Assembly (NCBI RefSeq): GCF_000220985.1
Contig: NZ_AFRW01000102.1
Location: 1 to 39,363 of the forward strand
DNA from: Nesterenkonia sp. F
Lineage (GTDB): Bacteria; Actinomycetota; Actinomycetes; Actinomycetales; Micrococcaceae
DNA length: 39,363 nucleotides
Reading direction: 5' to 3'
This document shows positions 1,319-30,021 of the stretch, in pieces. The notes beneath the pieces were generated by a model, which saw only the letters and a program-made list of their open reading frames with translations, ran no database searches and had not been told where the DNA came from. Every line of letters begins with the position of its first letter. Positions within the stretch are counted from its first letter, which is position 1. A program made the translations under genes and the position numbers.

Positions 1319-3016
1319 TCAGCCGCGGGCGCGGGTGCCGGCCTGGACCTCGCGCATCCAGGCCTCGACGTCGTCGGGCCTCCGCGGAAGCTCCGCGGAG
1401 AGGTTCTCCGCGCCGTCGGCGGTGACCAGCACGTCGTCCTCGATGCGCACCCCGATGCCGCGGTACTCCTCCGGCACGGCGAGGTCCTCGGCCTTGAAGT
1501 ACAGGCCCGGCTCGATCGTGAAGACCATGCCCGGCTCCAGCACGCCGTCCAGGTACAGCTCCCGCTTGGCCTGGGCGCAGTCGTGGACGTCCAGGCCCAG
1601 GTGGTGGCTGGTGCCGTGCGGCATCCACCGGCGGTGGTGCTGGCCGGAGTCGTCCAGGACCTCGTCCAGCGGCGCCGGCAGCAGGCCCCAGGAGTCCAGG
1701 TGCTCGGCGAGCACGGTCACCGCGGTGCGGTGCACGTCGCGGAAGCGGATCCCCGGGCGCACGACGGCGAAGGCGGCGTCGGCGGCGGCCAGCACGGCCT
1801 CGTAGACCTTCCGCTGGACGGGGGAGTAGGTGCCGTTCACCGGCAGGGTGCGGGTGATGTCGGCGGTGTAGAGCGATTCGGCCTCCACCCCGGCGTCGAG
1901 CAGCAGCAGCTCGCCGTCGCGGACGGTTCCGGTGTTGCGGATCCAATGCAGCACGGTGGCGTTGTTCCCGCTGGCGGCGATCGTGTCGTAGCCCAGATCG
2001 TTGCCCTCCAGACGGGCGCGGGAGAAGAAGGCGCCCTCGACCACGCGCTCGCCGCGGGAATGCCCGACGGCCCGCGGCAGCACTGAGACGACGTCGGAGA
2101 ATCCGGCGATCGTCGAGCGCACCGACTCACGCAGCTGCTCGATCTCCCAGTCGTCCTTGACCAGCCGCAGCTCGGAGAGCTCCTCGGCCAGCTCGGCGTC
2201 GGTGGCGTCGGAGGCCTCGAGATCCACTCCGGTGTTGATCCGCGAAGTGTCGACGAGCGCGTCGACGTCGAAGTCCACCTCGCGCAGCAGCCGGATGCGG
2301 GTGCCGCCGAGCTCGGCGGGGCCGGCGTCCTTGGTCACCGCGATCTCCAGCTGGGACACGTCGGCGGTGCGCAGGCCCAGCCGCTGACGGAACTCCTCGA
2401 GGTCCGGGCGCGGGCCGATCCAGAACTCGCCGGAGCGGGCGTCGGCGTAGAACTCCTCGGTGTCGCGGCCGGCCATCGGCTTGAAGTACAGCGTGCACTC
2501 ATGGTCGGAGCCGCCGTCGCCGGCGCCCTCCTCGACCGGTTCGAAGACCAGCGCGGCGTGCGGCTCGTGGTCCAGGCCCAGGCCGGTGAGGTGGGCGAAC
2601 GCCGAGTGCGGGCGGAAGCGGTAGTCGGTGTCGTTCGACCGGACCTTCAGCGGGCCGGCCGGGATGACCAGGCGCTCGCCGGTGTGGTTCCGCGAGACGC
2701 GGGCACGACGGCGCGCGGCATGGTCGGCCACCGCGTCGCGGGCGTGCTCGACCTGCTCGGCCGGAGCCCAGTGGGACGCCATGAACTCCTTGAAGGCTCG
2801 CGAGGTCGGCTTCTGCGACCGGTTCGAGCCGCGCTCTTCGAGCGGCTGGTCGCCGGGGCCTCCGGTCTCGCCGGAGGTGGTCTCCTGGTCGGGACCGGCG
2901 GGGGTGAGCGTGGTCCGCTCGACCGAGGAGACGACGTCGAACTCCTCCGCGCGCTCGGCCGATCCGGCCGACTCGGAGGACTCGTGGGAAGACGGGTGAT
3001 TCTGCGAACTGACCAT
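1319..3016 (-). CDS. pepP: Xaa-Pro aminopeptidase (aminopeptidase P, M24B family)
   Basis: Predicted cytosolic dinuclear-metal peptidase releasing N-terminal residues that precede proline. The 565-residue protein has a hydrophilic N-terminal extension (about residues 1-65), the aminopeptidase P N-terminal domain, then the pita-bread catalytic domain. The expected metal ligands are visible: Asp374 (LLLDAG), Asp386 (YTADIT), His471 (GTSHHLGLDVHD), Glu502 (FTIEPGLYF) and Glu526 (GVRIEDDVLV). The extension ends in RAFKEFMASHW, which I associate with actinobacterial members, so the ATG at 3016 is reasonable although its ribosome binding site (GTGGAG) is weak. The gene stands alone, divergent from the PHP gene across a large palindrome, and ends in a strong hairpin. 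Confidence 0.92.
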   Translation of the reverse strand: MVSSQNHPSSHESSESAGSAERAEEFDVVSSVERTTLTPAGPDQETTSGETGGPGDQPLEERGSNRSQKPTSRAFKEFMASHWAPAEQVEHARDAVADHAARRRARVSRNHTGERLVIPAGPLKVRSNDTDYRFRPHSAFAHLTGLGLDHEPHAALVFEPVEEGAGDGGSDHECTLYFKPMAGRDTEEFYADARSGEFWIGPRPDLEEFRQRLGLRTADVSQLEIAVTKDAGPAELGGTRIRLLREVDFDVDALVDTSRINTGVDLEASDATDAELAEELSELRLVKDDWEIEQLRESVRSTIAGFSDVVSVLPRAVGHSRGERVVEGAFFSRARLEGNDLGYDTIAASGNNATVLHWIRNTGTVRDGELLLLDAGVEAESLYTADITRTLPVNGTYSPVQRKVYEAVLAAADAAFAVVRPGIRFRDVHRTAVTVLAEHLDSWGLLPAPLDEVLDDSGQHHRRWMPHGTSHHLGLDVHDCAQAKRELYLDGVLEPGMVFTIEPGLYFKAEDLAVPEEYRGIGVRIEDDVLVTADGAENLSAELPRRPDDVEAWMREVQAGTRARG

Positions 3017-3084
3017 GCTCCACAGTCTGTCACTTCGGTGCGCGCGGTCCCACCGGCGAGCGGCCGTCTCCGCCGATCCTCCTG

Positions 3085-3152
3085 CGTGTCACGTCCGGCC
3101 CCTGTTGTCACGTCCCGGCCCGGACGTGACAACAGGGCCCGGACGTGACACG
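3085..3152. repeat. 68-bp near-perfect palindrome with four copies of TGTCACGTCC
   Basis: Two 31-base arms (3085-3115 and 3122-3152) pair at 30 of 31 positions around the 6-base centre CGGCCC. Each arm contains the 10-mer TGTCACGTCC twice with starts 19 bases apart: 3087 and 3106 forward, and the complement GGACGTGACA at 3122 and 3141. A further outer pair, GATCCTCC at 3075-3082 and GGAGGATC at 3161-3168, extends the symmetry. It lies between the divergent starts of pepP and the PHP gene, so it is not a normal terminator position. It could be a multi-site operator, a REP/MITE-like mobile palindrome or a cruciform. I see no second copy in this window. Confidence 0.9.
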
Positions 3153-3226
3153 CCGGACGGGGAGGATCGCGGGGGCGGGGGATGAGACGCCGCGTCGCCG
3201 AGACGCGGGGCGCGCCTCCGCGGGGA

Positions 3227-3232
3227 TACAGT
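3227..3232 (+). promoter_or_regulatory. -10 box of the PHP gene, leaderless layout
   Basis: TACAGT fits TAnnnT and is followed by 7 bases and then ATG at 3240. A start about 7 bases past the box would put the first transcribed base on or next to the A of ATG. No clear -35 is visible. Confidence 0.45.
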
Positions 3233-3239
3233 GAGGGAC

Positions 3240-4096
3240 ATGGGCGTCGACCTGCATGCGCACTCCTGGTACTCCGACGGCACCCAGCCCCCGGCGGCCG
3301 TGGTGGCCGCCGCCGCCCGCGCGGGGCTGGACGGCATCGCGCTGACCGACCACGACACCACCGCCGGCTGGGCGGAGGCGATGCGCGCCGCGGGGGAGCA
3401 CGGGGTGCTGCTGTCCCGGGGATGGAGATCACCACGCTCTCCTCGGATGCGATCAGCGTGCACATGCTCAGCTACCTCCACGACCCGCACGAGCCCCGGC
3501 TCGCGGAGGCGATCCGCGGGGCCCGCGGCGGGCGCTGGGAGCGGGCGCGACGGATGACCGAGCGGCTCGCCCAGGACTTTCCGCTGACCTGGGAGGACGT
3601 GTTGGCTCAGGTCGCGGACGGCGCCACGCTGGGTCGGCCGCACCTGGCCGACGCGCTGGTCGCCGTCGGCGTCGTCGCCGACCGGCAGCAGGCCTTCGAC
3701 CGCCTGCTGCACCGCAGCTCGCCGTACTACGTGCCGCAGCTGAACATGCGTCCGGACGAGGCGATCCGGCTGATCCGTCACGCCGGGGGAGTGCCGGTGC
3801 TCGCCCACGGGATGGCCTCCGCGCGCGGCCGGACGCTCTCGTCCGAGCAGCTGGAGGACCTCGTCGAGGCCGGGCTCGGCGGCGTCGAGGTCCATCACCG
3901 GGACAACCCGCCGCAGGGGCGGCAGGTGCTGCTCGAGCTGGCCGCGCGCCACGATCTGCTGGTCACCGGGTCCTCGGACTACCACGGAGCCGGCAAGCCG
4001 AACCTGATCGGGGAGAACACCACCGATCTGGACACCGTCGCGGAGCTGCTCGATCTCGCCACCGGCGTCCCGGCGTACGGCCATCTGCCGCGTTGA
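3240..4096 (+). pseudogene. PHP-domain phosphoesterase, broken by a single-base frameshift
   Basis: The N-terminal part reads MGVDLHAHSWYSDGT..IALTDHDTTAGW, the classical PHP metal-binding start (HxH, then DHD). This frame fails near 3410-3420. From there the next frame continues with PGMEITTLSSDAISVHMLSY, the correct family sequence, through GRPHLADAL and VLAHGM to the final TGSSDYHG. The span is 857 bases, one short of 286 codons, so one base appears missing at the VLL/VPGME junction beside the CCCGGGG run. The two halves together would give about 285 residues, the usual size of YciV/TrpH-like PHP phosphoesterases, some of which act on 3',5'-nucleoside bisphosphates or short RNA. Both halves keep high-GC third positions, arguing for a recent event or a sequence error. 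ATG 3240 is favoured by the promoter spacing; GTG 3231 is an alternative. Confidence 0.85.
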
Positions 4097-29977: not shown

Positions 29978-30021
29978 GACGACGGCCCCGCCCGAGGAAG
30001 TCCTCGGACGGGACCGTCGTC
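29978..30021. terminator. Strong bidirectional terminator
   Basis: GACGACGG at 29978-29985 and its complement at 30014-30021 close a stem of 21 positions with only two C/A mismatches and the tight top CCGAGG-AAGT-CCTCGG. It lies between the convergent 3' ends of the small membrane gene and betC, 24 and 31 bases from their stop codons. T-runs are absent. Confidence 0.8.

Follow-up and report, generated by a model that had tools for sequence, protein, structure and literature searches.

MITEs are miniature elements with terminal inverted repeats. The Nesterenkonia palindromes described here resemble them in being small, non-coding, dispersed, built of inverted repeats and present or absent between relatives, but differ in that no target duplication or autonomous relative was found in the two genomes that carry them, and in having almost no interior between the repeats.

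REPINs, as described in PMC3116915, are inverted REP doublets that form a hairpin. The Nesterenkonia palindromes are alike in having two inverted recognition units around a spacer, an extragenic location, a single-strand hairpin, and outer units that are conserved around a less conserved middle. They are unlike the REPINs described there in that neither genome has a RAYT match, in that there are about 10 copies instead of hundreds of doublets, and in that each arm is itself a double site with a 19-bp period. The CGTC-tagged REPs without a dedicated transposase, as characterized in PMC3733652, have stems of 8-9 bp, loops of 4-5 bp and an unpaired CGTC tag. The Nesterenkonia elements are likewise dispersed palindromes without an associated transposase gene, but their stem is about 29 bp long, the centre has 6 bases and the ends are paired. 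Among the bacterial palindromic repeats already described, many are either tied to a RAYT or have no known mover (PMC3733652, together with general background).

We read the palindrome studied here, with moderate confidence, as belonging to a clade-specific, REPIN- or MITE-like family of short interspersed repeats that are non-coding and non-autonomous. It is best treated as a new, clade-limited family that works like REPINs and MITEs and is a proven member of neither. Among the matches listed in literature searches on Nesterenkonia palindromes, the 10-mer, and REP, RAYT and MITE elements, no title or abstract opening describes such a family.

The window, that is, the whole stretch of DNA analysed, comprises 39,363 nucleotides (G000:C37:1-39363) of the Nesterenkonia sp. 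F assembly (G000; 2.81 Mb, 138 contigs, 93% complete). The initial annotation, made from the letters of this stretch, had described a palindrome between divergent genes with 31-base arms that pair at 30 positions around a 6-base centre, and with four copies of one 10-mer having a 19-base period in each arm. All of this is confirmed. The arms, 3085-3115 and 3122-3152, are complementary at 30 of 31 positions on either side of the centre CGGCCC, the four TGTCACGTCC sites begin at 3087, 3106, 3122 and 3141 (spacing 19/16/19), and the flanking genes are pepP on the minus strand and a PHP-type gene on the plus strand. The features are as follows.

3087..3150, no strand: 64-bp palindromic repeat unit, the family core, defined by ungapped alignments of 18 and 19 copies and by 18 loci where a covariance model matched the full 64 bp
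3087..3096, plus strand: outer site 1, TGTCACGTCC
3097..3105, plus strand: left-arm spacer, 9 bases; 37-38 of 38 arms have C, C and G at unit positions 14, 15 and 18, and the remaining positions vary and tend to match the right arm
3106..3115, plus strand: inner site 2, TGTCACGTCC
3116..3121, no strand: centre CGGCCC; its sequence varies among copies and its length is constant in the 19 aligned copies
3122..3131, minus strand: inner site 3, TGTCACGTCC on the minus strand
3132..3140, minus strand: right-arm spacer, 9 bases
3141..3150, minus strand: outer site 4, TGTCACGTCC on the minus strand
3075..3082, plus strand: left half of an outer pair, GATCCTCC, locus-specific and outside the family
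3161..3168, plus strand: right half of the outer pair, GGAGGATC, locus-specific

With pairs scored +1 and mismatches -2 the palindrome scores 30, the next best in the window scores 15, and the best palindrome in each of 20 simulated first-order Markov sequences scores at most 14. The RNA fold of a 131-nt stretch has a predicted energy of -105.3 kcal/mol (z -9.59), and none of 200 shuffled sequences was equally stable. The second-best palindrome, at 29978-30021, lies between convergent predicted genes and is probably an ordinary terminator. The outer GATCCTCC/GGAGGATC pair, which had been proposed to extend the symmetry, is present at this locus, and in a swapped-flank control the window copy's own flanks rank 1st of 37 with 30-nt flanks and 3rd of 37 with 60-nt flanks. 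Across all 19 copies, a copy's two flanks pair with each other no better than swapped flanks do (permutation P 0.77 and 0.65), so the pair does not belong to the repeat family and the idea of a longer element that includes this stem was dropped.

A search of the genome and of relatives for the 10-mer pair, as the initial annotation had suggested, returned many, mostly intergenic copies. TGTCACGTCC occurs 32 times in G000 and its reversed control 3 times. The pattern of one arm, allowing up to 3 mismatches, matches 22 places in G000 and 15 in Nesterenkonia halophila DSM 16378 (G008; family Micrococcaceae); neither G001 nor G029 has a match, and the reversed control gave none. By our sorting these places form 11 palindromes in G000 and 8 in N. 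halophila, the latter a minimum because that assembly is 65% complete; every arm place in the two genomes lies within a palindrome, except one half-element that adjoins the N. halophila copy at C19:134021. Also by our sorting, 26 of the 32 G000 sites are in palindromes, 2 are beside the PNPase copy, and 4 are isolated (contigs C40, C50, C77 and C120) and can be chance, given the 3 occurrences of the reversed control. The copies are mostly intergenic at these 11 and 8 loci, in keeping with REPs and REPINs as extragenic repeats. They are found beside pepP/PHP, cysteine desulfurase, EamA, PNPase, GcvT/GcvP, ispE/ABC-F, glycosylase/cation efflux, glyS and dnaB genes, which look unrelated and without a common theme; the names were mostly read from translations, and seven proteins were checked for domains.

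Solitary half-sites of the form TGTCACGTCC(G/T)CACC, 50-52 bp from the next site, adjoin the full palindrome downstream of PNPase in both species (L023 3043-3102 and L031 2989-2998) and are possibly partial or decayed copies. The predicted ends of the EamA and AbiEi-like genes run into the palindrome in both species (L016 2030-2992 and L023 3147-4313 in G000; L032 and L031 in N. halophila), so the repeat may supply their last codons.

Nineteen copies align without gaps over 64 bp, and the 19/16/19 phasing is fixed in all 19. The consensus over 38 arms is TGTCACGTCC-N9-TGTCACGTCC. Position by position, 34-38 of the 38 arms agree with the outer 10-mer and 27-38 with the inner one, and 37-38 have the spacer CC and G (unit positions 14, 15 and 18). 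Copies differ from each other at a mean of 15.0 positions (range 4-23, 171 pairs) with no indel among the 19 aligned, which we take to mean either that length is constrained or that the unit was copied intact in recent times.

Spacer bases covary between the two arms in shuffle and permutation controls, which do not give exact probabilities since the copies are related: over 18 copies, 85.1% of cells are standard pairs vs 80.5% after shuffling, 41 cells have both sides changed vs 26.2 (0 of 500 shuffles as high), and further pair types number 29 vs 24.5 (11 of 500), and spacers differ at 2.2 of 9 positions within an element vs about 3.3-3.4 between elements (0 of 10000 permutations as low). 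The fold and the shuffle tests thus point to a hairpin kept by paired changes, as in REPs and REPINs. Against this, the number of pairs with a double change over 18 copies is ordinary (12 vs 10.9 shuffled, 156 of 500), and the RNAalifold covariation term is about zero (0.12) and gives no bonus. Terminal inverted repeats, as in MITEs, are present. An unpaired GTAG or CGTC end tag, as in REPs and REPINs, is not: the ends TGTC...GACA pair in nearly all copies.

The pepP-type aminopeptidase gene (1319-3016, minus strand) has Peptidase_M24 and AMP_N domain matches. The gene diverging from it starts at about 3240 on the plus strand and was named PHP on the basis of a DLHAHS start together with below-cut-off NCBIfam matches; the tested fragment of its product has no Pfam match. 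This PHP-type gene (3231-4096) is split over two reading frames near 3415-3425, and the N. halophila gene is one open frame of 285 aa; the split may be a real frameshift or an assembly error. pepP was matched in 28 of 30 Nesterenkonia genomes (E 1e-100 or better), and the PHP gene lies upstream on the opposite strand in all 28 loci read. Only the gaps of G000 and N. halophila carry the palindrome; the other 26 do not. A TACAGT-like box just before the PHP start is retained in several relatives, so the palindrome is probably not the core promoter.

These counts bear on the proposal that the palindrome is an operator or architectural site, in which a clade-specific regulator or nucleoid protein would bind four phased sites cooperatively and the copies would have arisen by duplication and been kept for binding. 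The nearly invariant outer 10-mer, the less conserved inner one, the fixed spacer bases, the spacing free of indels and the six of eight N. halophila copies that stand at addresses common with G000 are all in its favour. We nevertheless regard it as unlikely: the adjacent genes have no evident pathway in common, 26 pepP/PHP loci keep their divergent gap without the site, and binding to duplex DNA leaves the match of unconserved spacer bases between arms unexplained. The operator tied to pepP or PHP that the initial annotation had considered is not supported, since the site is not conserved along with these genes, being present in 2 of 28 gaps; its suggestion of cooperative binding survives in the more general form that the fixed phasing of 19 copies still allows some protein on the four sites.

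The family appears narrowly confined. A blastn search with the 94-bp stretch against 30 genus genomes, including G000, matched G000, G008 and G029, the last by a 21-base piece at the query end only. Among 395 family genomes, a sample of a larger group, the double-site pattern occurs in G000 and G008, and these alone have matches of at least 65 bits to the covariance model R2; 15 others matched at no more than 42.3 bits, and no strong copy was seen by either method in the 393 other genomes. The R2 search recovered 10 of 11 G000 loci (not C116:11143) and 8 of 8 N. halophila loci; with 13 candidates scored per genome under stricter filters, it may have overlooked weak copies. At E 1 the window copy had no counterpart among 72,556 plasmid and 50,697 phage records, and no viral contig contained the exact arm pattern. 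In Rfam only microRNA-precursor models responded, at 28.6-42.8 bits against gathering scores of 70-104. The double-site pattern in named genomes returned 16 stretches, 5 of them in N. halophila. The other 11, several of which are 19-bp tandem duplications, were taken as chance or unrelated; no transposase was recognised beside them in the first 160 residues of nearby ORFs of at least 150 codons.

Several of the R2-matched genomes have GTCACGTCC stems in common. One Micrococcaceae genome, G206, has four very similar, shorter GTCACGTCC-stem hairpins located 8-23 nt past predicted stop codons (L164 7397, L165 16629, L172 9352 and L175 15392). In G159 (L182 11148-11220) a palindrome that closely follows a predicted gene contains three GTCACGTCC-like sites at 14-base spacing. 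A wider class of GTCACGTCC hairpins in family genomes stays a lead, because R2 itself selected for this motif and the stretches fetched were centred on R2 matches.

An alternative at the RNA level is a hairpin that acts as a terminator or 3'-end stabiliser and was copied to places downstream of genes. The very stable fold agrees with it, as do the G206 hairpins and the many copies that have a predicted stop codon within about 100 bp, in some cases at 13-39 bp. We think it distinctly unlikely, since the window copy, its N. halophila counterpart and the copies at G000 C116:14582 and G008 C20:88732 lie upstream of both of their divergent neighbours, no T run adjoins the window copy, and a terminator needs neither a nearly invariant outer 10-mer nor a fixed length.

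Judged by neighbouring genes, six addresses are common to G000 and N. halophila, six of the eight copies of the latter. Five were compared one to one; the sixth, at GntR, allows more than one assignment (0 or 1 double change) and was set aside. At the pepP/PHP address four pairs have changed on both sides with pairing kept (unit positions 12, 16, 17 and 20), along with 2 one-sided changes; the PNPase address likewise has four double changes with pairing kept (unit positions 11, 12, 13 and 31) and 7 one-sided. The cysteine desulfurase address has one double change and 11 one-sided, and the EamA and DinB addresses have none, with 4 one-sided changes each. One-sided changes at the common addresses fall partly in the loop-proximal part. 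The pepP copies of the two species are each nearer to another copy (7 differences) than to each other (12), and for EamA and DinB the nearest copy is the counterpart in the other species (4 and 6 differences). Such a mixture would be expected if some addresses underwent replacement or arm-to-arm copying and others drifted in the ordinary way.

Two G000 addresses (C127 and C124) are empty in N. halophila, which has both flanking genes and no element. The gaps are 130 vs 17 bp and 249 vs 89 bp; the differences of 113 and 160 bp are larger than the 64-bp core, and the element boundaries are thus not exact. At the glyS (C137), dnaB and NUDIX addresses the spacers of the two species do not align and can be read as neither empty nor filled, and the GcvT/GcvP address (C114) has no N. 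halophila match among the matches listed. The REP- or MITE-type mobile palindrome of the initial annotation is favoured by the many, mostly intergenic copies and by addresses that lack the element in relatives; the tag of a REP or REPIN in the strict sense is absent, and neither draft has a RAYT match.

A G000 block containing TauE, an unnamed ORF and an MBL-rhodanese gene lies between the palindromes at C116:11143 and 14582 (L023 4444-7946). The N. halophila counterpart has a single palindrome (L031 4333-4396), and the block is absent from that place. Its flanks agree with the outer sides of the G000 pair, left with left of the first palindrome (194 of 240 aligned bases) and right with right of the second (181 of 241), compared with 106 of 218 and 111 of 237 in wrong-flank controls. 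This comparison suggests that the palindromes serve as rearrangement points. Among seven stretches from relatives that have the block, PNPase is near it in two (G012 and one of two in G020), and the other five have no PNPase within the stretch; loss of the block at the palindromes in N. halophila is thus the likelier direction. The block is on the same strand as PNPase in G012 and that G020 stretch and on the opposite strand in G000. The AbiEi-like gene beside PNPase is bracketed by palindromes in both species and has a weak, below-cut-off PF13338 match in both; we make no claim that it is a mover.

The search for a mover covered the rve and Y1 transposase classes in these two incomplete draft assemblies. 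No RAYT/Y1 (PF01797) match was found in G000 (93% complete) or N. halophila (65% complete), and one of the 30 genus genomes (G010) has one. rve (PF00665) has two matches in G000 and none in N. halophila; the two transposases, read as IS30-like and IS481-like, do not have arm-like ends, and an rve-type insertion sequence was rejected as the source. Within these classes and drafts, we found no autonomous element with the same ends in either genome. By eye, no target-site duplication was seen in the flanks, the boundaries at the empty addresses being inexact.

The palindromes might also be the terminal repeats left by an insertion sequence with TG...CA ends and two sub-repeats per end that is now absent from both assemblies. 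TG/CA outer ends are seen in the window copy, and such ends with 19-bp sub-repeats resemble ends bound twice by a DDE transposase. This origin seems very unlikely to us, as all 37 arm matches (up to 3 mismatches) except the one half-element lie in palindromes, no transposase adjoins any context read, neither the plasmid nor the phage records matched the window copy at E 1, no viral contig contained the exact arm pattern, and no target duplication was seen.

Under the preferred reading, as a family of non-autonomous interspersed repeats, the element has two inverted arms, each with two copies of a recognition site 19 bp apart, and as a single strand it can form a hairpin of about 29 bp. Gain and loss of copies would take place at mostly intergenic sites, presumably through a trans-acting enzyme that recognises TGTCACGTCCnnnCC; mobility by an enzyme is our inference. 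Counted against a mobile element are the low copy number, the one-sided stem changes accumulated at common loci, the lack of a Y1/RAYT or arm-ended rve match and of a visible target-site duplication, the 113- and 160-bp differences, the RNAalifold term near zero, and the 65% completeness of the N. halophila assembly. A fuller proposal, which we put forward as doubtful, is a palindromic mobile element with no tie to a RAYT or known insertion sequence that is recognised via its four phased site copies. Both arms would be replaced together, either as a hairpin or with one arm serving as template for the other, so that sister species could carry different arm types at a given address, and deletions of neighbouring genes would have their breakpoints at the copies.

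For the pepP/PHP gap, the analysis does away with an operator that is tempting but lacks support. Concerted changes of both arms at the same address bear on the choice between single-strand hairpin copying and repair from one arm. Found in two related species only, the family is small enough to be mapped fully, and its shared, private and empty addresses make it a tractable case for finding how repeats spread without a RAYT.
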